A stretch of 64,000 bases of DNA, from assembly GCA_903927615.1 (NCBI GenBank), contig CAIYNU010000011.1, forward strand, positions 1 through 64,000. The letters run 5' to 3'. The notes beneath the pieces were generated by a model. It was not told the origin of the DNA and did no database searches. It worked only from the letters and a program-made list of their open reading frames with translations. The translations under genes and the position numbers were made by a program. This document shows, in pieces, positions 3,367 through 37,425 of this stretch. Origin of the DNA: an uncultured Rhodospirillales bacterium. GTDB taxonomy: Bacteria; Pseudomonadota; Alphaproteobacteria; Azospirillales; Azospirillaceae. The stretch's first letter is position 1; each line of letters opens with the position of its first letter.

Positions 3367-4039
3367 GGGTCGCCGCCGGGAGAGCAGGCCTCACGCCCAG
3401 CACGTCCCGCAGGTTGACCAGCATGCCGGCGGTAGCTCCCCAAATACGGTGCTCCCCGTAGGGGAAGACGTAGAAAAGGCGGTCAATTCCACGCACTGGG
3501 TAAGTGTCACGGAGAGGCATGTGCGGGTCGAGGATCGTGGTGAGAGGTACCTCGAAGACTTCCGCCACCTCTTCGGGATCGGGTGTCAGCGCGAACGGCG
3601 GATAGACCAAGCCCACGACCGGGGTAACAAGGAAACCGGTGCGGGTGATGTAGGTATCCAGGCGCCCGATCGGTTCGACATGGGCGCGGGACAGGCCGAT
3701 CTCCTCTTCGGTCTCGCGTAAAGCCACCGCTTCGGCGTCGAGGTCTTCGTATTCGATCTGGCCACCGGGAAAGCTGACTTGCCCGCCGTGGGCGGCCAAG
3801 TGGGGGGTGCGCTTGGTGAAGATCACCGTGAAGCCTTCGGGGCGAACGACCAACGGCACCAACACCGCAGCCTCGCGCAGTTCCGAGGCTACCACCATGC
3901 CGGGATTCAGATCGTGATCGCCGCGCACCGACACGCAACGACCGGGATCATCGTCGATGCTCGACGCAAACCGATACCGCAACAAGGATGGAGTCGGCAT
4001 GGATATTTCCAGTGCCGGGGCGATCACGGCCTGATCCAT
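3335..4039 (-). CDS. Nudix hydrolase, CoA-pyrophosphatase-like
   Basis: A 234-residue protein of the NudL/YeaB-type Nudix group, which usually hydrolyses CoA or other nucleoside diphosphate derivatives. The region around residues 87-112 carries a PGGQIEYED segment followed by RETEEEIGL, matching the Nudix box with its metal-binding REXXEE glutamates. The start at 4039 has AAGGAAGG a few bases upstream. The final ten codons and the TGA stop lie inside the hairpin of a dispersed repeat, so the C-terminus was probably rewritten by insertion of that element. The substrate is inferred from the family only. Confidence 0.88.
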   Translation of the reverse strand: MDQAVIAPALEISMPTPSLLRYRFASSIDDDPGRCVSVRGDHDLNPGMVVASELREAAVLVPLVVRPEGFTVIFTKRTPHLAAHGGQVSFPGGQIEYEDLDAEAVALRETEEEIGLSRAHVEPIGRLDTYITRTGFLVTPVVGLVYPPFALTPDPEEVAEVFEVPLTTILDPHMPLRDTYPVRGIDRLFYVFPYGEHRIWGATAGMLVNLRDVLGVRPALPAATRVVTETPDTL

Positions 4040-4370
4040 GGGTACCTTCCTTCAGCTATCAGGGGCGCACGGAATTATGCGCCAAGCCGGCGGCGACGTC
4101 ACGGCTTCCGTAGATCCGCCACGACGGCCCCCGGCGTTACCGCCGTCAGTTGCCGCGGTGGTTCGACCAAGCTGGCTCCTTCCCCGGTTCCGTTGATTGA
4201 AGGCAAAGTTAAGAATGACCCATCAGCCGTTGTGGGGGCCTTGGCCCCATAGGCGCTCGGATAGGGCGATGGGTCTGATTTTTCAGGGCTCTGCCCTGCA
4301 CCCGCCGGGAGGCTCGGGCCAGAGTCGTACCGGCTGGGGAGTCGTGGACCTCACGTCTTTGGGGCGGACT
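4040..4370. other. Intergenic region with a 3'-end repeat
   Basis: No gene is supported. The region lies between the cysE stop and the Nudix start, both on the minus strand, so it holds the Nudix promoter and the cysE 3' end. It includes a GGGGGCCTTGGCCCC palindrome (about 4233-4248) and a copy of the CAGGGC-TCT-GCCCTG hairpin repeat (4284-4315). Confidence 0.5.
4284..4315 (+). repeat. CAGGGC/GCCCTG hairpin repeat, copy a
   Basis: CAGGGC-TCT-GCCCTG followed by CACCCGCCGGGAGG. Related copies lie at 46142-46167 and, inverted, at 46961-47000. This copy is about 55 bases downstream of the cysE stop. Confidence 0.7.
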
Positions 4371-5225
4371 TCAGATGCTATAGTCGGGTTCGGGCAGGCT
4401 CTGATCCATGGAAAGACCGGGCACCGAGGTGCCACGGCACCAGCCGACGATCTTGGCCGGTACGCCCGCGACGGTGGCGCAGGGCGGCACGCTCTTCAGC
4501 ACCACGCTGCCGGCCCCGATCTTGGCGCGGGCGCCAATCTCGATGTTGCCGAGCACCTTGGCCCCGACCGAGAGCAGGACACCGTCGCGGATCTTCGGGT
4601 GGCGGTCGCCGGTTTCCTTGCCGGTGCCGCCAAGGGTCACGCCCTGGAGGATCGAAACGTCGTTGCCGATCACGGCGGTCTCGCCGATGACGACGCCGGT
4701 GGCGTGGTCGATGAAGACCCCGCGCCCGATCGGCACCGCCGGATGGATGTCGACGGCGAACACCTCCGAGCAGCGGTTCTGGAGGAAGTACGCCAACTCC
4801 TTGCTCCGCCGTTGCCACAGCCAGTGGCTGATCCGCTGCCATTGCAGGGCGTGGTAACCCTTGTAATAGAGAAACGGCCCGAGATAGCTTCCGGCCGCCG
4901 GGTCACGGGTGAGCACCCCCATCAGGTCGGCGACGCCGCTGCGGATGAGTTCGGGATCGTCGGCCGAGGCGGTGCGCACGAGGTCTTCAAGCCGCTCGGC
5001 CGAGATGTGCGGCCCGCCGAGTTTGCGGGCCAGCAGGGCGGCCAGGGCCGAGGAGAAATCCTCGTGAGCCAGCACAGCGGTGTTAATAAAGCCGCGCAAC
5101 GCCTTTTCGTTGGCGATGGCCCGGAAGGCTTCGCCCCGCAGCGCCTCCCAGACATCGTTGCCAATATCGGTATTGTTCTGCCCGTCCGAAAGATAGCGGG
5201 TGGCCAGGGCGGAAATGTGGGACAT
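4371..5225 (-). CDS. cysE: Serine O-acetyltransferase (CysE/EpsC type)
   Basis: A 284-residue enzyme that acetylates L-serine with acetyl-CoA to O-acetylserine, the carbon skeleton for cysteine. The N-terminal half is the helical serine-acetyltransferase domain. The C-terminal half is a left-handed beta-helix with hexapeptide repeats, seen in DIHPAVPIGRGVFIDHATG, VIGETAVIGNDVSILQGVT and LGGTGKETGDRHPKI. The gene starts three bases after the desulfurase stop, and its GGAGG lies in the desulfurase tail, so the two are probably translationally coupled. Its place behind encapsulin and cysteine desulfurase links it to storage and re-use of sulfur taken from cysteine. Confidence 0.95.
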   Translation of the reverse strand: MSHISALATRYLSDGQNNTDIGNDVWEALRGEAFRAIANEKALRGFINTAVLAHEDFSSALAALLARKLGGPHISAERLEDLVRTASADDPELIRSGVADLMGVLTRDPAAGSYLGPFLYYKGYHALQWQRISHWLWQRRSKELAYFLQNRCSEVFAVDIHPAVPIGRGVFIDHATGVVIGETAVIGNDVSILQGVTLGGTGKETGDRHPKIRDGVLLSVGAKVLGNIEIGARAKIGAGSVVLKSVPPCATVAGVPAKIVGWCRGTSVPGLSMDQSLPEPDYSI

Positions 5226-5228
5226 GGA

Positions 5229-7076
5229 TCAGCCTCCACCGCCCTTGAGGCGCAGCAGCGCCGCCACCAGGGCATCGATATCTTCGCAGGTGTTGTAGAA
5301 GGCCAGCGACGGCCGCACCGTGCTCTCCAGGCCGAAGCGGCGCAGGATCGGCTGGGCGCAGTGATGGCCGGAGCGGACGGCGATGCCTTCGCGGTCAAGG
5401 GCCTGCCCGACATCCTCGGTGCGGTGGCCGTCGAGGACGAAGGACAGCACGCCGGCCTTTTCCTTGGCGGTCCCGATCAGGGTCAGGCCGGGCACGGTTT
5501 GCAGACCACGGGTGGCGTAGACCAACAACTCGTGCTCGTAGCGGGCGATGTTCTCCAGACCGACCCGCTCGACGTAATCGAGCGCGGCGCCCAGTCCCAC
5601 CGCGTCGGCAATATTGCCGGTGCCGGCCTCGAAACGGGCCGGGGCGGGCTGGTAGACCGTCTTCTCGAAGGTGACGTCGGCGATCATGTTGCCGCCGCCC
5701 TGCCAGGGCGGCATGGCGTCGAGCACGTCCTTCTTGCCGTAGACGGCGCCGATGCCGGTGGGACCGAACACCTTGTGCCCCGAAAAAGTGTAGAAGTCCG
5801 CATCCAGCGCCCGGACGTCGGTGCGCAGGTGCGACACCGCCTGGGCGCCGTCCACCAGCACCCGGGCGCCGTGGCGGTGGGCGATCTCCACCATCTCGCG
5901 CACCGGGGCCACCGTGCCCAGCGCGTTGGAGACCTGGGTGAAGGAGGCGATGCGGGTCCGTGGGGTGAAGAGCTTTTCGTATTCTTCCAGGATGATCTGG
6001 CCGCTGTCGTCCACCGGGGCCACCTTGAGGCGCGCCCCCTTCTCGGCGGCGAGCTGCTGCCAGGGCACGATGTTGGCGTGGTGCTCCAGCCAGGTGATCA
6101 CGATCTCGTCGCCGGGACCGACATTGCGCCGTCCCCAGCTTTGGGCAATCAGGTTGATGCCCTCGGTGGTGCCGCGCACGAAGACGATCTCTTCGGTGGA
6201 AGCGGCGCCGAGGAAGCGCCGGACCTTTTCCCGCGCCGCCTCGTAGGCGTCGGTGGAGCGGGCGGCCAGGGCGTGGGCAGCCCGGTGGATGTTGGAATTC
6301 TCGCGTTCGTAGAACTCCGAAAGGCGGTCGATCACCGCCCGCGGCTTCTGGGTGGTGGCGGCGTTGTCGAGCCAAATCAACGGCCGGCCGTGAACCGTCT
6401 GGTCCAGAATCGGGAAGTCCCGGCGGAGCGCCCGGGGGTCGAACGGGGCGACTCCGAGGGTGGGAATCGCCTCCGGCCGATGGTCCACGGGCAGCAGACC
6501 GAGGTCCAAATCCGCACCGGGAGAGGGCGCGGCGGTGCTGCCGCGGGGCACCGGCGGGACCGTCTCCGCGCCCGCCGGAGGCTTGAGTTGGTCGAGGAAA
6601 TAGTAAGACCCGCCGGGCACCGACGGCACCGCCTCCCGGGGCGGCGACAGGCTCAGCCCCTGGGGCACCAGCGCCAGCGCCCCGCCGAGGCTATGGGGCA
6701 CCGCCGCGAAATCGAGGCCGCCCGGTTGGCCCGGGTGGGCAAAGGACGCTGCCGCGACCGGTGGTCCCACCGGGGCCGCGACCGGTGGTCCCACCGGGGC
6801 CGCGACCGGTGGTCCCACCGGGGCCGCTGCCGGAGGGACCGTGGGCGGCGCGGGCGCGGGCGCGAGATTGGGAATGGCGGCCCCAACCGGCGCCACCGTC
6901 GGCGGTTCCGGGCGGACGCCGCCGGGCAGGTTGAGGCCTGCAATCGGCGACTCGCTTCCCGGCAGCGCGGTGAAGAAGGCGTTGGCGAGTTCGGCGATCA
7001 GCCCGGGATCGGGGGCGAACCCCGATCCCGGCGCCGTACCACCAAAACCGCCCGGAGCGAGGCGTTCAGCGGTCAT
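5229..7076 (-). CDS. SufS-like cysteine desulfurase with disordered N-terminal encapsulin-targeting extension
   Basis: A 615-residue PLP enzyme that converts cysteine to alanine plus an enzyme-bound persulfide. The catalytic domain spans about 210-615. The PLP lysine lies in FSGHKVFGPTG, the ligand motifs in LDNAATTQKP and EHHANIVPW, and the persulfide cysteine in RSGHHCAQP. Ordinary SufS proteins are about 400 residues; here about 200 Pro/Ala/Gly-rich residues precede the enzyme. They include a helix-like LIAELANAFFTALPG near the N-terminus, three PVGPPVAA octapeptide repeats, and SYYFLDQL shortly before the catalytic domain. In family 2A encapsulin systems such an extension is the cargo-loading domain. 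The ATG at 7076 is chosen because GGGAA precedes it; it overlaps the encapsulin gene end by 11 bases. An ATG at 7091 is the alternative. Confidence 0.95.
   Translation of the reverse strand: MTAERLAPGGFGGTAPGSGFAPDPGLIAELANAFFTALPGSESPIAGLNLPGGVRPEPPTVAPVGAAIPNLAPAPAPPTVPPAAAPVGPPVAAPVGPPVAAPVGPPVAAASFAHPGQPGGLDFAAVPHSLGGALALVPQGLSLSPPREAVPSVPGGSYYFLDQLKPPAGAETVPPVPRGSTAAPSPGADLDLGLLPVDHRPEAIPTLGVAPFDPRALRRDFPILDQTVHGRPLIWLDNAATTQKPRAVIDRLSEFYERENSNIHRAAHALAARSTDAYEAAREKVRRFLGAASTEEIVFVRGTTEGINLIAQSWGRRNVGPGDEIVITWLEHHANIVPWQQLAAEKGARLKVAPVDDSGQIILEEYEKLFTPRTRIASFTQVSNALGTVAPVREMVEIAHRHGARVLVDGAQAVSHLRTDVRALDADFYTFSGHKVFGPTGIGAVYGKKDVLDAMPPWQGGGNMIADVTFEKTVYQPAPARFEAGTGNIADAVGLGAALDYVERVGLENIARYEHELLVYATRGLQTVPGLTLIGTAKEKAGVLSFVLDGHRTEDVGQALDREGIAVRSGHHCAQPILRRFGLESTVRPSLAFYNTCEDIDALVAALLRLKGGGG
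6751..6822 (-). repeat. Three in-frame 24-bp tandem repeats in the desulfurase extension
   Basis: Three identical consecutive 24-bp units, at 6751, 6775 and 6799, encode PVGPPVAA repeats in the disordered N-terminal part of the desulfurase. Identity at the DNA level points to recent slippage or homogenisation. Because the unit length is a multiple of three, copy number can change without breaking the frame. Confidence 0.9.
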
Positions 7077-7983
7077 CGTAGTTCCCGACATAGACGTTTT
7101 CGAGCACTGCCAGCGAGTCGTCCGTGAGCAGGACTGCCGAGCAGTAAAGCGAGATCAGGTAGGAGGCGATGGCCTTGCGGCTAATGCCCATGAAGCGCAC
7201 CGACAGGCTGGGCGAAACTTCGCCGGGCACGCCGGGCTGGAACAGGCCGATGACGCCCTGTTTCTTTTCGCCCACGCGCAGAAGCAAAATGTTGGTCTTG
7301 CCCTCGGCGTCCACGGCCAGCTTGTCACTGGGAACCAATGGAATGCCGCGCCAGGTCAGGAACGGATTGCCGAATAGGGTGACGGTGGGCGGCGGCACGC
7401 CGCGCTTGGTGCATTCGCGGCCGAAGGCGGCGATGGCGCGGGGGTGAGCCAGGAAGAAGGCGGGCTCCTTCCACACCTTGGTGATCAACTCGTCCAGGTC
7501 GTGGGGTGTCGGCGGCCCGTTGAGGGTGCGGATCCGTTGGACGGGCGCGGCGTTGGGCAACAGTCCGTAGACCGGATTGTTGACCAGTTCGTTCTCCTGT
7601 TTCTCTTTGACCTTCTCAATGAGCAATCGGAGCTGCTCGCGGATCTGGTCATAGGGCTGGTTGTAGAGGTCCGAGACGCGGGTTTGAACGTCCAACACCG
7701 TGGTGACGGCATTGAGGGAATATTCCCGCGGGGTCTCCTCGTAATTAACGAAGGTCTCCGGCAAATCCGCGGCGGCACCCGGACTGCATTCGACGTCGTC
7801 ACGGGCCGATTCCTTGACCCGGTTAAGTCGATAGATGCCGGCCTCGACGGGAACCCAGGGCAGGAAGGTCACCAGCCAACGCGGCGTGATGCCGCCCCAT
7901 TGCGCCGGGGTCTTGGTGGCATTGGCCAGCTGACGGGCAGCCTTCTCACCCAATGTCCGTTGAAGTTCAATGGTTTCGCTCAT
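7066..7983 (-). CDS. Family 2A encapsulin shell protein (SrpI-type)
   Basis: A 305-residue HK97-fold shell protein that assembles into a protein nanocompartment. It closely resembles cyanobacterial SrpI over its whole length. Hallmarks are ARQLANATKTPAQ near the N-terminus, ITPRWLVTFLPWVPVEAGIY, DQIREQLRLLIE, the stretch DELITKVWKEPAFFLAHP, AIAAFGRECTKRGVPPPTV, LSVRFMGISRKAIASYL and a C-terminal LYCSAVLLTDD. The ATG at 7983 has AAGGA eight bases upstream and gives the family-typical N-terminus. The neighbouring cysteine desulfurase overlaps its 3' end and is the expected cargo. Family members are induced by sulfur limitation (SrpI), and some are reported to store elemental sulfur; those functions are transferred by homology. 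Confidence 0.96.
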   Translation of the reverse strand: MSETIELQRTLGEKAARQLANATKTPAQWGGITPRWLVTFLPWVPVEAGIYRLNRVKESARDDVECSPGAAADLPETFVNYEETPREYSLNAVTTVLDVQTRVSDLYNQPYDQIREQLRLLIEKVKEKQENELVNNPVYGLLPNAAPVQRIRTLNGPPTPHDLDELITKVWKEPAFFLAHPRAIAAFGRECTKRGVPPPTVTLFGNPFLTWRGIPLVPSDKLAVDAEGKTNILLLRVGEKKQGVIGLFQPGVPGEVSPSLSVRFMGISRKAIASYLISLYCSAVLLTDDSLAVLENVYVGNYDDR

Positions 7984-8316
7984 AAGGGGCGTCCTTGGAA
8001 TGATACGCGATGACTGTTCACGCAAGAGAAGTTTTCGATGACAAACCGTCCAATGCACCGGGGACGGCCGGCTTGACGAGAGGGCCGAGAGTTCTGCAAA
8101 TTGCCTCCTGTGTCAATATAAACTAACTAGGTTAACAGACTATTAGGACAATGTGCGACGATGTGTATCCAACAGAACCGACCACGCCGGTTGGGCCGTC
8201 CGTTGACGCACCCTCAAGCCAGGACCGGATCGCCAGCCCCACCGGCCACAGCCGTGCCCTGTTGCCGGTGGCGCCGACCAAGCCCTGGCTGAGGCGTCAC
8301 AGTCTTGCTCGGTGAC
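7984..8316. other. Promoter region of the encapsulin operon
   Basis: A non-coding gap of about 330 bp between rhodanese and encapsulin. It is AT-rich at 8110-8165, unlike its surroundings, and includes an imperfect TAAC-TAG-GTTA dyad. Together with the gap size, this suggests that encapsulin, desulfurase and cysE start from their own promoter. No established operator was recognised. Confidence 0.45.
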
Positions 8317-8718
8317 TCAATGGGTCCAAGGCAGACCCAAAGCCTTCCAGCCTGGGATCGCGTTACCGGGTTTGCCCTCGAAGCCATTGGCGACGTTGAA
8401 GGCGAGATAGCCTTGACGCGCCAGCACCTCACCGGCTGCCCGGGACCGGACCCCACTGCGGCAAATCAGGAACACCGGTTGTTCGGGTGTAATGCCGCTG
8501 GCCGCGAGTTCGGCACTGAACTGCCGCTCGCGCTCGGAAGGTGGGAACTTCTGCCAGTCCAACTTCACCAGCGGGCGGCCGAGACTGGAAATGTCCGGAA
8601 TCCCCACATGATTCCACTCGTCGGGGGTCCGCACATCAACGAGCACCGCCGCCGGATCGTCCGCCAGTTTCTGCCACGCCTGCTGAGGACTTACATCGCC
8701 TGCGAATTGCCCAGCCAT
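8317..8718 (-). CDS. Single-domain rhodanese (sulfurtransferase)
   Basis: A 133-residue single rhodanese domain that carries sulfane sulfur as a persulfide on its active-site cysteine. The signature features are VLVDVRTPDEW, the active-site loop CRSGVRS and the closing region VANGFEGKPG. The ATG at 8718 is chosen because GGAG lies six bases upstream; the ATG at 8724 would sit directly against that GGAG. The gene lies upstream of the encapsulin operon on the same strand and could pass sulfur to or from the compartment; that role is inferred from position. Confidence 0.92.
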   Translation of the reverse strand: MAGQFAGDVSPQQAWQKLADDPAAVLVDVRTPDEWNHVGIPDISSLGRPLVKLDWQKFPPSERERQFSAELAASGITPEQPVFLICRSGVRSRAAGEVLARQGYLAFNVANGFEGKPGNAIPGWKALGLPWTH

Positions 8719-30128: not shown

Positions 30129-32006
30129 TCAGGCCGAAAGCGTTGGCGTCTCATCATACAGACCGAAGGCCGCCGGCGGCACCCGTAAGAATGTCACCGG
30201 CTCGGCAAAACCCTTGACCCGGGCTTGCTCGGCAAGCGCACCCAGGGGGGCCAACCGGGCGGCGACGCCGGGGTCGGCGGCCAGGGTTGCCGACAGCACC
30301 ACGTCGCCGCCGGTGCTTTGACCCTGAAGCCGGGCCGCCAGATTGACCGTGCTGCCGAAATAATCGAGCCGGCCATTGAGCGTCACCGCCACGCACGGCC
30401 CGCCATGCAGGCCAAGCTTGATCACCAGGGCCTGGTCGCCGGTCTGGGTCGCGTTGAAACGGGCGATGTGGGTTTGAACCGCGATGGCGGCGGCCACGGC
30501 GTGTTCGGGATCATGGAACGCCGCCATCACCGCGTCGCCGATGGTCTTGACGATGCCGCCGTCATGGAGACGAATCTGTTCCGCCAGGAAGGCGAAATGG
30601 TTGCGCACCAACTGGTAGGCGCGGGCATCGCCGACCTGGGTGTACAGGGCGGTTGAGGCCTTGAGGTCCGTGAACATCAGGGTGACGTGGCCGATGGCCA
30701 CCTCGTCACCGGGGCGCAGCACCGCGTCCGAGAACAGTTCCCGGAACGCCTCGAGGGTGGTGACGTGGTGAGCGGTCAGGGCGTCGGTGATCCAGCTCCG
30801 GTCCTCGATCATGAAGGTCAGGGCGTGGCCGGTGTGATTTTCCAGGGCGACCTGACCGGCCGGGGCCGGCGGACCGGCGACCACGGCCTGACCGTCGGCC
30901 ACCGCCGTCGGCAGCCCCCAGCCGGGTTCCGGGCCGTCGATGTCGGTTCCGGTGCCGGGTTCCAGGGTGCGCAATCGCCAGGGGCCGGTTGGCAGATCGG
31001 CCGCCACCAGCCGCCGCTCTCCCGCCGCCAGGGTTTGCTGGACGGCGACATGCGGGGTCAGCCCGGGGCCGCTGAGGCAGAACCCGCCGGGCGCCACCGG
31101 GCGGATCGCTTCGGCGGGATGGAAGGTCAGTTCGACGTTGCGGCTGAAGTCGGCGTCGTAAGGGACATTGCAGGACGGGCAGTGGACGCCGTGGGGTAAC
31201 CGGTCGAGCGAGGTCACGGCCGTCTTGGCGCCGCGGCAGCGCGGGCACAGAATGTCCCAGTTCATGGCCAGCAGGCCGTTCTTGACCGCCGCCAGACAGG
31301 TTTCCACGGCATGGCGCGGCGGCACCGCCCACCGCCGGGCCAGGGCCAGCGGCCTGATGCGCGCCAGATCGGTTTCGGGGCCGGTCAGCACCAGTTCGGC
31401 CAGCCGGCGGGCGAGGCCGTGGCCGTTGCCGCTGGCCTCGATGGCGTCGACCATGCCGTCCACCCGCTGCGCCCGGCTGGAGGCCGGCGCCGGGCCGGTG
31501 CTCCCGGTCGGTTCGGGAAACGGGGGTGAGCGGTACCCTCCGATCGTCGCGATTTCCCGGGCCGCGCGTTCCATGGCCCGCCCGGCGCGGTCGAGAAACC
31601 CCGGGGGCAGCAGCAACCCGCTGAGCCACGAGGCCGGTTCGATCTCGAGCACAAAGGTCGCCCGGGTGCCGCCGGCATCGCCCGGCTGCAATTCCGTGGC
31701 TTGACTCAAGCGACGGAGCGGTCCCCGGGTGAACAGCCGTTCCTGCCGGAAACTGCGGCCCGCCACCCACTGACAGGGTTGTTCGTCCCATTCCAGGATC
31801 GTTTGCCCGCCCAGAATGTTCCGTCGGATCGCCCGCGCCAGCCGCAGCAGCGAGCCGTCGGCCCGGAACACCTCTTCCACCTGATATTTCGGAACGCCCA
31901 CCGCCTCGTTGAGGTGGGGGGTGTCGGCCAGGATGGTCCAGACGGTTTCGGGAGGTTGGGTGAACTGCCAAACCCAGGCGCGCCGTACCGTCTTCGCCAT
32001 GACCAT
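30129..32006 (-). CDS. SRPBCC domain, zinc-ribbon and class III nucleotide cyclase fusion
   Basis: A 625-residue soluble protein. Residues 1-160 resemble the SRPBCC/START ligand-binding fold (VWQFTQPPETVWTILADTP). A middle region has CPRCRGAKTA and CPSCNVPYDADF, a probable zinc ribbon. The C-terminus is a class III cyclase domain with metal Asp in LMFTDLKAST, KTIGDAVMAAF and DYFGSTVNLAARLQ. It should make cAMP or cGMP under control of a ligand bound by the N-terminal domain; the ligand is unknown. Two ATGs six bases apart both have AAGGA at good distance; 32006 is the upstream one. Confidence 0.85.
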   Translation of the reverse strand: MVMAKTVRRAWVWQFTQPPETVWTILADTPHLNEAVGVPKYQVEEVFRADGSLLRLARAIRRNILGGQTILEWDEQPCQWVAGRSFRQERLFTRGPLRRLSQATELQPGDAGGTRATFVLEIEPASWLSGLLLPPGFLDRAGRAMERAAREIATIGGYRSPPFPEPTGSTGPAPASSRAQRVDGMVDAIEASGNGHGLARRLAELVLTGPETDLARIRPLALARRWAVPPRHAVETCLAAVKNGLLAMNWDILCPRCRGAKTAVTSLDRLPHGVHCPSCNVPYDADFSRNVELTFHPAEAIRPVAPGGFCLSGPGLTPHVAVQQTLAAGERRLVAADLPTGPWRLRTLEPGTGTDIDGPEPGWGLPTAVADGQAVVAGPPAPAGQVALENHTGHALTFMIEDRSWITDALTAHHVTTLEAFRELFSDAVLRPGDEVAIGHVTLMFTDLKASTALYTQVGDARAYQLVRNHFAFLAEQIRLHDGGIVKTIGDAVMAAFHDPEHAVAAAIAVQTHIARFNATQTGDQALVIKLGLHGGPCVAVTLNGRLDYFGSTVNLAARLQGQSTGGDVVLSATLAADPGVAARLAPLGALAEQARVKGFAEPVTFLRVPPAAFGLYDETPTLSA

Positions 32007-32335
32007 TCCTTTTCCTTCGGCCCGCCGGTCGGGCGCCCGCACAGAAAGTGGGGTCGGCGAGGCGCCCCGCCAAGCCGTGAGCGGGCCCGATCACTCTATA
32101 CCCGGCTGGGCGGCGGACGGCGACGATGTTTTTTCGGGTCGGGGATGGCGCCGTTCCGGTGATCGCCTGTGGTCGGCGCAACCGTGACGCCGGCGGATGA
32201 TTGCATACAAATGTATGCTTACTCTTATTTGATCGCCGATGTTATGATTCCATCGAATTTGTTCCACTACCATGATAAATATGCAGGGATTACGCTTGGG
32301 CGTGGCGCGCCGCGGCGATTGCGGGAGGGGACGGG
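32007..32335. other. Divergent intergenic region
   Basis: It separates the cyclase and kinase genes. It contains the 16-bp palindrome at 32203-32218 in an AT-rich stretch (32195-32280), which probably carries the kinase promoter, and a strong GGGAGGGG ribosome binding site before the kinase. Confidence 0.5.
32203..32218. promoter_or_regulatory. Palindrome upstream of the Sel1-repeat kinase, possible operator
   Basis: GCATACA-AA-TGTATGC is a perfect 7-bp inverted repeat about 120 bases before the kinase start. Its placement and composition suggest a regulator site; no family is assigned. Confidence 0.4.
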
Positions 32336-34129
32336 ATGTCGGACACGTTGGAACTGGACGATGACTCACACGCCGAGGCGCTGCCGGTCGGCTTTCAACT
32401 TAACAACTTTCGGTTGGTCAAGGTCCTGGGGCGGGGTGGCTTCGGGATCACCTATCAGGCGGAAGAGATCCGGCATGGTAAGGTGGTTGCGATTAAGGAG
32501 TTTTTCCCGATCCAACTTGCTCGTCGCGACGGCGTCAGCGTTCGGGCACTGAGCGGAGGAACTAAAAAAGACTTCGATCAGTACTTAAAGAAATTTTTTG
32601 ATGAAGCGACAACCCTGTTGCGCTTTGGTCACCTCAATCATATTGTCAGTGTTCGAAGTTACTTCCCGGCGAATGGTACCGGCTACCTCATGATGGATTT
32701 CGAGACGGGTCAACCGCTCGACCGCCATCTCGCTACCCTCGGGCGAGCCTTGACCGAGGCGGAGGTCTTGGCGATTTTGATCCCGCTGCTGGAGGACCTT
32801 GAGCAGGTGCATGCCACCAATATTCTTCACCGCGACATCAAGCCCCAGAATATCATCATCCGGCCCGACGGTTCACCGGTGTTGGTCGATTTCGGCGCGG
32901 CCCGGTACTGGAGCGACGAGGCCTCAGATCCCACCAGGACGGCTTTTCACAGTGAAGGCTATACGCCGTGGGAGCAGTACTCGCGTGACGGTCGTCAGGG
33001 ACCGTGGACCGATCTCTATGCTCTGGGCGCGACCGCGTATCAAATGGTGACGGGTTACAGGCTTCAAGGCGGGCTGGATCGAAAAATATCCACAGACCGC
33101 CACGTCAGTGTCGCCCAAGAGACTGCGCCCGGAGCGTACAGTTCCGAGTTTCTGAAGGCCATCGATTGGGCACTACAGTTAGACATGGCCCAGCGACCGC
33201 AAAGTGCAGCAGCGTGGCGTCGTCTGTTCGAATCTCCTGTGCCGAAGCCGCCGGTTGTGTTGGAGCCGCCGGTTTCCCCATCGACTTGGCAGATGGGAAA
33301 GGACGCCTATGATCAGAATGATTACGCGACGGCCATCAAGGTATGGCGACCATTGGCTGATGAGGGCGACGCAATAGCACAGTATTGGCTCGGAGTGATG
33401 TACGACGATGGCGAGGGCGTCGACCAGGACGATGCCGAGGCGCTCAAGTGGTATCTTAAGTCTGCCGGGCAGGGCTATGCTGCTGCACAGTATTGGCTCG
33501 GAGTGATGTACGACGATGGCGAGGGCGTCGACCAGGACGATGACGAGGCGCTCAAATGGTATCGTAAGGCTGCCAGGCAGGGCGATGCTGCTGCACAGTA
33601 CAGTCTTGGGATTATGTACCAGGAGGGCCAGGGCGTCGAGCAGGACGATGCCGAGGCTCTCAAATGGTATCGTAGGGCTGCCAGGCAGGGCTATGCTCAT
33701 GCGCAGTACCGTCTTGGGGTTATGTACCAGGAGGGCCAGGGCGTCGAGCAGGACGATGACGAGGCGCTCAAGTGGTATCGTAAGGCGGCCGAGCAGGGCG
33801 ACCCTGACGCGCAGCACGCCCTCGGGGTTATGTATCATGAGGGCCAGGGCGTCGAGCGGGATGATGCCGAGGCGGTCAAGTGGCATCGTAAGGCTGCGGA
33901 ACAGGGCGACGCCGCCGCGCAGTACAGACTTGGATTACAGTACAAGAATGGCTGGGGCGTGACCAAGGATTATGTCCAGGCCTATATTTGGTTCATGGTG
34001 GCCGCTGATCAAGGTCATGGGAGAGCGCCCAGAAGCCGCGATGCCGTGGCCAAACAATTGACCCGCGCCCAGATCGCTGAAGCAAAAAAGCAGGCGGCGA
34101 CGTTACCCAAAGCCGATGGCCCGTCATAA
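32336..34129 (+). CDS. Hanks-type Ser/Thr protein kinase with C-terminal Sel1 repeats
   Basis: A 597-residue protein. Residues 25-290 form a complete kinase domain: glycine loop GRGGFG (32-37), Lys54 in VAIKE, HRDIKPQN with Asp167, and DFGAAR with Asp185. The activation segment ends in YTPWEQYSRDG. Six 36-residue Sel1 repeats follow, each around AQYxLGVMYxxGxGVxxDDxEALKWY, forming a protein-binding solenoid. No membrane helix is seen. It is a close paralogue of the kinase at 60493, which has an FGE domain instead, so kinase heads and recognition modules have been swapped. Partner and substrate are unknown. Confidence 0.92.
   Translation: MSDTLELDDDSHAEALPVGFQLNNFRLVKVLGRGGFGITYQAEEIRHGKVVAIKEFFPIQLARRDGVSVRALSGGTKKDFDQYLKKFFDEATTLLRFGHLNHIVSVRSYFPANGTGYLMMDFETGQPLDRHLATLGRALTEAEVLAILIPLLEDLEQVHATNILHRDIKPQNIIIRPDGSPVLVDFGAARYWSDEASDPTRTAFHSEGYTPWEQYSRDGRQGPWTDLYALGATAYQMVTGYRLQGGLDRKISTDRHVSVAQETAPGAYSSEFLKAIDWALQLDMAQRPQSAAAWRRLFESPVPKPPVVLEPPVSPSTWQMGKDAYDQNDYATAIKVWRPLADEGDAIAQYWLGVMYDDGEGVDQDDAEALKWYLKSAGQGYAAAQYWLGVMYDDGEGVDQDDDEALKWYRKAARQGDAAAQYSLGIMYQEGQGVEQDDAEALKWYRRAARQGYAHAQYRLGVMYQEGQGVEQDDDEALKWYRKAAEQGDPDAQHALGVMYHEGQGVERDDAEAVKWHRKAAEQGDAAAQYRLGLQYKNGWGVTKDYVQAYIWFMVAADQGHGRAPRSRDAVAKQLTRAQIAEAKKQAATLPKADGPS
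33363..34010 (+). repeat. Six tandem 108-bp Sel1 coding repeats
   Basis: Six in-frame 108-bp units encode the Sel1 solenoid. The first two share nearly identical DNA, for example GGAGTGATGTACGACGATGG at a spacing of 108. This suggests recent duplication and possible copy-number change between strains. Confidence 0.85.
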
Positions 34130-34457: not shown

Positions 34458-35972
34458 ATGGCGGGTGTGACCGGGGCGGGGTATCCGTGGGCGGCGGTGC
34501 GGTTGGCTCTGGGGGATCGTGCCGCGCTGGCGGTGGTGGGGGTCGCGACCCTGGCCAAGCTGCTGATCGTGCTGGTGCTGGTCCATCCGGTGTTGTCCAC
34601 CGAAGGCGACGCGCCGGGCTATTTCGCCTTTGCCCAGTCCATGGTCGGCGACGGTCAATGGCGGCATCCGCCCTCGTGGGTCGGCGATCCGCTGCCGACC
34701 TTCCTGATCCGGCTGGCCGGCTATCCCCTGGTGATGGCCGGGGCCATGGCGGTGGGTGGCGATCATTTCGTGTCGGTGTTGCTGCTGGTTCAGATCGCGG
34801 TCAGCACCGTGGCGCTGCTGGTGGTGATCGGGTTGGCGGCGGCGGTGATCGGCTCCCGCGCTCTTCGCGTGGTCTTGGCGGTGGCGGTCTGTTTCGGCTC
34901 GCCGTTTCTCTATGACCTGATCGCGCTCAGCGACGGGTTGTATGCGGCGCTGTTCACCCTGGTGGTGTTCGGCATCGCCGGCGAGATCGCCGGAGTCTGG
35001 CGCCTGGGCCTCAAGGCCCTGGTGGTTTTGGGCCTGCTGTGGGGCTATTCGGTCCTGGTGCGCGATGCCGGGCTGTATTTCACGCTGTTGCCGCTGGCCG
35101 GCTTGCTGGTGCGGGGCGCCCGTGTGCAGCGGACGGCGGTGTTTCTGCTGCCGGTGGCGGTGATCCTGACCGCCTATGCCGGGTTCAACCAAATCCGCAC
35201 CGGCCATTACTTTCTGAGCGTGGCCGGCGTCGTCAACTACCTGTACCCGGTGTTCCGGATCACCGAAACCGGCACCGCCAACCCGCTGGACGGCGACGAT
35301 CCGGTGTCGGTGACCTATCACCGGATCGGCGCCCAGCCGGATCTGGCCGGCATGGTCGCGACCGTGGCGGCGCTGATGCAGGACCGGCAGTTGAACACCC
35401 TGGAGGCCGCCGCGCTCACCAAGGCCAAACTGGCCGACACCATCCGGCGCTTTCCGCGCGCCTATGCCCGGCTGGTGCTGGTCAACCTCAAGCTCGACAA
35501 ACAGGCTTTCAACCTCACCAACCCCACCTATATTCTCAACGACCTGCTGGCCTTCGGGCCGTTTGTGGGCGCCCGGACCATGCCGGGCTTCCAGCAAACC
35601 TTCCGGGAACTGCGGCACCATTTCTCGGTGGGCATTCTGTTGACCTTCGTGGCCACCGAATTCTTTGATCTGCCGTCGCTCGCGCTGTTCGCGCTGTTCG
35701 CCCTGGGGGTGCCGGCGGCGGTGCTGGCACGCGGACTCCGCCGCCGCCCGGTGACGCCGCCCTTGTGGCTTGCGCTCTATCTATGGCTGGGCTATGGCGG
35801 CCTGGTCTTGGCTTATGCTTCGGTTCATTTCGAAATTCGTTACATGCTGCCCGTGGTTCCATCGGCCCTGCTTGCGCTGACCATCATGGTCGAAACCGTC
35901 CGGGAGGGCTATCGCCACCGCCACCACCCCCAGCCGCTGTCCGGAGACCGGTCGCCATGTCAAAATCACTGA
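34458..35972 (+). CDS. Polytopic membrane protein, GT-C glycosyltransferase-like
   Basis: A 504-residue inner-membrane protein with around ten or more hydrophobic helices. A first periplasmic loop carries STEGDAPGYFAFAQSMVGDG. An acidic residue in this position is typical of GT-C (ArnT/PMT-like) transferases that use polyprenyl-phosphate sugars. No precise family was recognised, so substrate and product are unknown. Its 3' end overlaps the next gene by 16 bases, and that gene overlaps the channel homologue, so the three form one transcript. Confidence 0.65.
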   Translation: MAGVTGAGYPWAAVRLALGDRAALAVVGVATLAKLLIVLVLVHPVLSTEGDAPGYFAFAQSMVGDGQWRHPPSWVGDPLPTFLIRLAGYPLVMAGAMAVGGDHFVSVLLLVQIAVSTVALLVVIGLAAAVIGSRALRVVLAVAVCFGSPFLYDLIALSDGLYAALFTLVVFGIAGEIAGVWRLGLKALVVLGLLWGYSVLVRDAGLYFTLLPLAGLLVRGARVQRTAVFLLPVAVILTAYAGFNQIRTGHYFLSVAGVVNYLYPVFRITETGTANPLDGDDPVSVTYHRIGAQPDLAGMVATVAALMQDRQLNTLEAAALTKAKLADTIRRFPRAYARLVLVNLKLDKQAFNLTNPTYILNDLLAFGPFVGARTMPGFQQTFRELRHHFSVGILLTFVATEFFDLPSLALFALFALGVPAAVLARGLRRRPVTPPLWLALYLWLGYGGLVLAYASVHFEIRYMLPVVPSALLALTIMVETVREGYRHRHHPQPLSGDRSPCQNH

Positions 35973-36310
35973 TTACCACACTAATGATCCTGGTTCTGGG
36001 GTTTGCCGCCGGTCTGCGGCCCACCGGGGCGACAGCCCAGACTCCGGCCCAACCCCAAAGCCAACAACCCCTGTCGTCGGTTGAAATCGAGACTTTACTG
36101 AGGGATAAGAACCAGTTAGCCCTTTACCACTACGGCAGCCGCTACGCCTTCGATACCCTGCTGGGCGGCATTAGCGGCGGTGTGGTCGGTGCGGTGTTCC
36201 GGGGCGGTCCAGTGGCTACAATAACAGGCTCGACACTGGGCTCGTTGCTTGGCATTCTGTGGTTCCTCGACGGCTATGCCGGTGAGATGATCGACAAGCA
36301 TGGTTGGTAA
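35957..36310 (+). CDS. Small exported or membrane protein with glycine-rich helices, unknown
   Basis: A 117-residue protein with an N-terminal signal-like segment (LITTLMILVLGFAAG, then ATAQTPAQ). A second hydrophobic part, LLGGISGGVVGAVF followed by STLGSLLGILWFL, resembles a glycine-zipper hairpin. It overlaps both neighbours, and its TAA stop touches the ATG of the channel gene. It may be an accessory subunit of that channel; this is inferred only from gene order. Confidence 0.6.
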   Translation: MSKSLITTLMILVLGFAAGLRPTGATAQTPAQPQSQQPLSSVEIETLLRDKNQLALYHYGSRYAFDTLLGGISGGVVGAVFRGGPVATITGSTLGSLLGILWFLDGYAGEMIDKHGW

Positions 36311-37425
36311 TGATGATGGGTGGTTCACGTGCATGGCGCCAACGGGTGTGGCGGCGCCAAGGAGTGTTGACTCTGGGGTTTCTGGTGTTGTTGGGCTGGC
36401 TGGTGGCCCATCCGGCCCTGGCCGAGCCGCCGGGCGCCACCGCGCCGCCCGCCGTTACGGAACCCGTTACGGCACCGGTTGTGACGATACCGGCCGCTGC
36501 GGTCCCGGCTGCCGCGAAGACCGGGACGGTCAAGGTTGGGCTGTTCATTACCCAACTCTACGACTTGGACATGCCCCGGCGGTCGTTTAATGCCACCTTC
36601 TGGGCCTGGTTTCTGCATAACGATGAAGCCTACAAGCCCGTCGACACGGTCGAAATTGTCAACGCCAAGACGTCGACGCTCCGCTTTCCGTCGGTCACGC
36701 CCGAATACAATATTCCCTGGCAAACGGGAAACAGTCGGGTATTTTGGACGCAGGGCAAGTATGCTGCGACCTTGTCCCAGGATTTTGACGTCACTAAGTT
36801 CCCATTCGATCGTCAAACATTGCTTATTATGATCGAAGACGCGCAAAATGATGTGGATCAGACGATCTTCCTGGCCGATTCAGATAATAGCAAAATTGAT
36901 AAGGCGGTCAAAATTCCGGGATGGCAAATTGAGTCCTTTAATATTCAATCCGGTCATGCGGTTTATGATACCACCTATGGCGACCCCAGTCTTCAGGGCT
37001 CCAGCACCTATTCGCGGGTGACCGCCAGCATCGTTGTCAAGCGCGATGGCCTGCGCCTGCTGGGCAGCATGTTCATCGGCTTCTTCGTGGCCTTCGCCCT
37101 GACCTTCCTGACCTATTTCCTTGATACCGAGTTTATGGCGGGCTCTCGCATCGGCCTGTGCGGCGGCGCCATTTTTGCCTCGGTCGGTAACAAGTTCGTG
37201 GTCGACACATCGTTGCCGCCGGCGTCGACGTTTACGCTGTCGGACGCCATCGAAGCGTCGACCTTTTGCGCCATCGTGATGGCCATCTTGATTGTGGTGC
37301 TGGTAAGGGCCACCCAGAGTCAGCGTCCCCGGCTTGCCAAGGGGATCAATGCCGGCGGTGCGGTTCTGAGCGCCGGCAGCTACCTGACCTACAACAGCCT
37401 GATGATTTTCCAGGCCATGAAGTGA
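36310..37425 (+). CDS. Pentameric ligand-gated ion channel homologue
   Basis: A 371-residue protein with signal peptide (ending about HPALAEPPG), a Pro/Ala/Thr-rich spacer and a beta-rich extracellular domain starting VKVGLFITQLYDLDMPRRSF. The Cys-loop-equivalent motif is FDVTKFPFDRQTLLI, the FPFD hallmark of GLIC/ELIC-type channels. Four C-terminal helices follow, with M1 at LLGSMFIGFFVAFALTFLTY and M3 at STFCAIVMAILIVVLV. It probably sits in the inner membrane as a pentamer and gates ions in response to an unknown ligand. M2 is unusual, with Cys and Asn (GLCGGAIFASVGNKFVVD), so ion selectivity cannot be predicted. Confidence 0.8.
   Translation: MMMGGSRAWRQRVWRRQGVLTLGFLVLLGWLVAHPALAEPPGATAPPAVTEPVTAPVVTIPAAAVPAAAKTGTVKVGLFITQLYDLDMPRRSFNATFWAWFLHNDEAYKPVDTVEIVNAKTSTLRFPSVTPEYNIPWQTGNSRVFWTQGKYAATLSQDFDVTKFPFDRQTLLIMIEDAQNDVDQTIFLADSDNSKIDKAVKIPGWQIESFNIQSGHAVYDTTYGDPSLQGSSTYSRVTASIVVKRDGLRLLGSMFIGFFVAFALTFLTYFLDTEFMAGSRIGLCGGAIFASVGNKFVVDTSLPPASTFTLSDAIEASTFCAIVMAILIVVLVRATQSQRPRLAKGINAGGAVLSAGSYLTYNSLMIFQAMK

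Follow-up and report, generated by a model that had tools for sequence, protein, structure and literature searches.

According to Jaiteh et al. 2016 (PMC4795631), no unicellular pentameric ligand-gated ion channel (pLGIC) has a known biological role, and in prokaryotes the charge selectivity of such channels cannot be predicted from the motif at M2 positions –1′/0′ (PMC4795631). The same work defines Pro-loop receptors by an F/YPxD motif with an invariant Pro in the β6–β7 loop and gives superfamily frequencies for other landmarks: pre-M1 Arg (94%), M2–M3 Pro (88%), a basic residue at M2 0′ (79%), Leu or Phe at 9′, and Pro at M1 14′ (77%), a position where Pro is not obligatory and Gly is a minority state (5%). 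A sensory role was suggested by Tasneem et al. 2004 (PMC549065), who took the fusion or linkage of prokaryotic ART-LGICs to PBP, Cache and MCP-N domains, an indirect context, as grounds for proposing chemotactic receptors; MscS is not mentioned anywhere in that paper. Our literature search, with most subscription papers outside its coverage, returned no report of a pLGIC with type VI secretion or chemotaxis, Azospirillum included.

The window analysed here is a 64,000-nucleotide stretch of a contig from an uncultured Rhodospirillales bacterium. The product of its frame 36304–37425 is a divergent pLGIC, a Pro-loop receptor and thereby a bacterial relative of the channels that serve nerves as neurotransmitter receptors, and on this point sequence matches, structural model and conservation in relatives agree with the earlier note, which had read the gene as a ligand-gated ion channel. 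Its best phmmer match in the PDB has an E-value of 4.5e-07 and falls on bacterial pLGICs, the best-matching chains (9ftg, 6v4a) being 609–642 aa long. The NCBIfam model LGIC_1 matches at 9.2e-11, under its curated cut-off. Pfam PF02931 likewise stays below its curated cut-off (18.6 of 26 bits, with only the latter half of the profile matched); this score fits with the missing loop A segment described below, and the cut-off is a rule for detecting pLGICs rather than a defining trait.

Table 1. Coordinates of the features of the channel locus in the window
Feature	Position	Strand	Remarks
Polytopic membrane protein, possibly GT-C-like glycosyltransferase	34458..35972	+	GT-C identity unconfirmed
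Small exported glycine-zipper protein	35957..36310	+	overlaps GT-C-like gene by 16 nt
pLGIC gene	36310..37425	+	reading frame open from TTG 36304; ATG 36310 is the likely start
Ligand-binding domain	36523..37044	+	beta-sandwich, model residues 3–176
Pro-loop (Cys-loop) tip FPFD	36799..36810	+	motif defined in PMC4795631
Loop C motif Y-x-T-x-Y-G-D	36964..36984	+	candidate ligand site
M2 pore helix, 0′ to 20′	37147..37209	+	R0′, G2′, C4′, F9′, G13′, N14′, K15′, D19′

The likely start codon sits in a TAATG junction with the stop of the preceding small-protein gene. It is followed by a Sec-type signal peptide ending ...HPALA (read by eye), an Ala/Pro-rich linker, an extracellular beta-sandwich ligand-binding domain and four transmembrane helices. 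G+C content falls to 40% at 36784–36903, within the ligand-binding domain, against 63% for the window. An AlphaFold monomer model built from a 12-sequence alignment reached a pLDDT of 88.6 and a pTM of 0.77. Its top Foldseek matches in the PDB are GLIC structures (E about 1e-21), and VIA-align superimposes it equally well on GLIC, GluCl, GABA-A and GlyR, with Z about 25 over 277–281 residues. The match to GLIC, GluCl and GABA-A receptors runs over the full length of the model. The protein is a pLGIC and not the alternative named in the earlier note, a monomeric beta-protein whose helices have nothing to do with such channels.

Nearly every landmark residue of the superfamily was found. FPFD occupies channel residues 166–169, its Pro and Asp being invariant across the 12 aligned relatives, and the β9 Trp position holds an aromatic residue. 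In model numbering the pre-M1 Arg is R176, the 0′ Arg is R211, the 9′ Phe is F220 and the M2–M3 Pro is P234. The whole subfamily lacks the W-x-P loop A segment seen in GLIC, and at M1 14′ Pro is replaced by Gly 188, which, as a listed minority substitution, does not exclude the channel from the pLGICs. A chance reading frame or a wrong fold, considered as candidates, were ruled out by structure, conservation and family landmarks.

We surveyed 82 genomes of the family, taken as Azospirillaceae, and found channels of the close clade in 12 of them, clade membership being read from alignment and tree. The window channel pairs with that of a sibling species (G004), then with those of G001 and G003, then with an Azospirillum group. 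The earlier note had stressed the rarity of prokaryotic pLGICs; here the channel is not a single oddity, as at least two more pLGICs are present in the window genome, one of which (632–644 aa) groups apart from it. One genome, G009, carries tandem duplicate channel genes (contig C88; L027 6067–7182 and 7630–8745), and a heteromeric pair is possible there.

Gene order in relatives places the channel beside a chemosensory module. In five Azospirillum-type genomes (L100, L102, L104, L105, L140) the closest homologues, 44–52% identical, head a tight operon in which overlapping or narrowly spaced genes follow on one strand: channel, CheW-like protein (PF01584), methyl-accepting receptor (MCP), MscS with a cyclic-nucleotide domain, and TPR. 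The MCP contains four-helix-bundle, HAMP and MCPsignal domains. The channel stop overlaps the CheW-like gene or lies within about 30 nt of it in all five, and this arrangement is kept among genomes whose CheW-like proteins are as little as 34% identical. No such adjacency of channel and module is seen in the window genome or elsewhere in its genus: the window genome's copy lies unlinked on another contig (L146, G000:C77; CheW-like 3699–5111, MCP 5090–7105, MscS-cNMP 7113–8570). The unit was also found without an adjoining channel in G001, G429, G451, G002 and G014. A second CheW-like/MCP/MscS-cNMP module of the window genome (L149 2197–7163, G000:C15) is more diverged, at about 43%, and modules of that type also occur in genomes without a close-clade channel.

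Co-occurrence was scored on MCP and MscS-cNMP; the CheW-like protein evolves fast, and a search with it had overlooked the copy in the window genome. The module was counted as present where both proteins reached 62% identity or more to their G001 counterparts, which served as queries. This threshold lies at a clear gap in the 82 genomes, with copies at 62–100% in 13 genomes and all others at or below 49%. Channel and module occur together in 11 genomes, the channel alone in one (G009, no module match), the module alone in two (G002, G014) and neither in 68; thus 11 of 12 genomes with a close-clade channel hold the module, compared with 2 of 70 without. Fisher's test gives P = 6.5e-11 over the 82 genomes and P = 1.8e-07 when restricted to the main genus; both values ignore kinship, so that vertical co-inheritance could inflate them, and they are to be read as indications, not as probabilities.

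The computation establishes the fold, the membership in the family, the gene order of the relatives and the co-occurrence with the module. On these data rests a working model in which the pentamer, its conduction, the class of ligand, the periplasmic orientation and the joint action of channel and module are inferred. Five copies of the protein would form an inner-membrane homopentamer whose ligand-binding domains face the periplasm. There a small molecule would bind between subunits under loop C and thereby open the central M2 pore, and the resulting ion flux may be read by the chemosensory module, namely the CheW-like protein, the methyl-accepting receptor and the MscS-type channel with its cyclic-nucleotide domain. 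The module is encoded on another contig in the window genome and in the channel's own operon in the five relatives. We give about even confidence to the reading that the channel is a periplasmic ligand sensor feeding this module, with the GT-C-like and glycine-zipper genes a lineage-specific arrangement; confidence in the coupling is held at that level because channel and module are unlinked in the window genome. More broadly, and only tentatively, the channels of this subfamily may truly supply ion-flux input to a chemosensory/MscS signalling unit in bacteria, and a sister clade may have been adapted to type VI secretion.

Alternatively, the channel may be a sensory pLGIC that works on its own, gated by protons, amines or ions in the manner of GLIC or ELIC, and may co-occur with the module through common ancestry or position in the genome rather than through a joint function. 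We regard this as less likely than the working model; it is in keeping with the lack of an established role for any unicellular pLGIC noted at the outset. In G001 and G003 the channel gene apparently forms a transcription unit by itself and the module is found on other contigs, and G009 has its tandem duplicate and no module. Against it stand the five-genome operon, tight despite the divergence of its CheW-like genes, and the presence of the module in all channel genomes except one. It may also be that the MCP really works with the MscS channel, the pLGIC being a passenger.

The earlier note had placed the channel in a different unit, an operon with a GT-C-like gene and a small glycine-zipper gene whose product could be an accessory subunit. 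The three frames do overlap on one strand; cotranscription is deduced from these overlaps, and a scan for promoters and terminators gave no more than shuffled sequence. As for the labels, the GT-C assignment stays unconfirmed: the product of 34458–35972 has no Pfam match, its model (pLDDT 50) is too poor to decide the fold, and the top Foldseek matches, GT-C enzymes (AftA, OST), are not significant (best E 0.12). The small frame is present and resembles glycine-zipper families, all matches being below cut-off (PF05433, 21.3 of 24.2 bits). Directly upstream of the cluster, 32336–34129 combines a Ser/Thr protein kinase with Sel1 repeats in one fusion, and the C-terminal end of 30129–32042 resembles, by eye, a class III nucleotide cyclase.

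Comparative data give no support to the small protein as an accessory subunit, or to the three genes as a functional unit. The gene order is not unique to the window genome: it recurs in the sibling species G004, as does a downstream GDT1-family gene, and it was found in these two only. Adjacent or overlapping same-strand genes in two sibling species, and two neighbours that both look exported or membrane-bound, speak for a shared function. Yet the neighbours occur without the channel and the channel without both neighbours. The GT-C-like and small-protein genes are adjacent in G002, of the same genus, which has no close-clade channel; the small protein and the channel lie on different contigs in G001; G013 and G011 carry diverged forms of the small protein with no channel alongside. 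Conversely, the channel stands with neither gene in G003, in G009 and in every Azospirillum-type relative. A functional three-gene cluster is therefore quite improbable, and judging from gene order, the cluster is probably a recent, lineage-specific arrangement with the neighbours incidental rather than functional partners of the channel.

A separate branch of the channel tree comprises channels about 30% identical to the window channel (L073–L088, L091, L095, L116–L118); their genes lie beside hcp in type VI secretion clusters of Azospirillum-type genomes and beside hcp-like genes in G007. Of the 18 loci of this clade that were examined, all have hcp just upstream of the channel and 17 also have TssA and a UPF0114 membrane protein. 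The order is TssM, TssA, Hcp, UPF0114 and channel, often followed by SIMPL. The clusters read further (L116, with L098 for IcmF and ImpA) also contain TssM (IcmF), TssK and TssB. This position could suggest that the window channel, too, serves type VI secretion or contact signalling, all the more as the loop C motif is common to both clades. We consider this very unlikely, given that the window channel belongs to another branch of the tree and that none of the loci examined for its clade matched type VI secretion genes.

The loop C motif Y-x-T-x-Y-G-D is essentially invariant across the close clade and the type VI-linked clade, and its aromatic pair with the Asp would suit an amine ligand. In the pore, R0′, F9′, G13′, N14′, K15′, D19′ and P23′ are invariant in 17 close sequences, and no acidic residue stands at –1′ or –2′. 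The earlier note had pointed to Cys and Asn in M2. Both are there, Cys at 4′ (37159) and Asn at 14′ (37189), the former variable and the latter invariant within the close clade; neither was retained as a pore feature, for in the standard register 4′ and 14′ point away from the pore. Nor was anion selectivity adopted from the S-R motif, as such motifs are non-predictive in prokaryotes (PMC4795631). A degenerate, non-conducting pLGIC acting as a ligand-binding membrane anchor, as the M1 Pro-to-Gly change, the missing loop A segment, the glycine-rich pore and the invariant Phe 9′ might be taken to mean, is highly improbable, because the transmembrane landmarks are kept across the clade, M2 is strongly conserved, and Phe 9′ and M1 Gly are known minority states in the superfamily (PMC4795631).

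Compared with GLIC and ELIC, the window channel has the same subunit fold and topology, lacks the Cys-loop cysteines, has a short M3–M4 linker, and keeps the F/YPFD Pro-loop, the pre-M1 Arg and the M2–M3 Pro; its identity to GLIC is 16–18% in the structure alignment. It differs in the absent W-x-P loop A segment, Gly for Pro in M1, no Glu at –2′/–1′, the residues R0′, G2′, F9′ and G13′, and a loop C motif of its own. The pore and loop C signatures define a subfamily for testing gating and charge selectivity against GLIC and ELIC. With DeCLIC and the multidomain bacterial pLGICs it shares the core ligand-binding domain and four transmembrane helices, and it is without their extra N-terminal sensor domain. 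GlyR, GABA-A and GluCl resemble it in a neutral residue followed by Arg at –1′/0′, with a structural Z equal to that of GLIC, and differ, as anion-selective Cys-loop receptors, in having the Cys-loop. After its neutral residue and Arg, the M2 of GlyR has Gly at 2′, as does the window channel.

A further combination of these domains was seen in a protein of about 1040 aa consisting of PBP (PF13458), then a region that matches the first half of the pLGIC ligand-binding domain, then an MscS channel domain. Its loci are L112 377–3031 (G000:C28), L113 1192–4314, L114 3743–6937 and L115 4660–7767, with G002:C71 and G439:C27. The ligand-binding-like region aligns in hhalign at 94.7% (E 6e-8) and has lost the Pro-loop; an MscS pore carrying a Cys-loop-like sensor domain would be an unusual design.

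Azospirillum is a plant-associated genus, culturable and genetically workable. If the coupling proposed here is true, a bacterial pLGIC would for the first time be given a physiological role. Whereas the ART-LGICs of Tasneem et al. 2004 were linked to PBP, Cache or MCP-N domains, the present channel is linked to a complete MCP together with a CheW-like protein and MscS-cNMP. The operon is more direct contextual evidence for their chemoreceptor idea than the PBP and Cache linkages, and with the pLGIC placed first, ahead of a CheW-like protein, a chemoreceptor and MscS, it makes the 2004 proposal testable by deletion.
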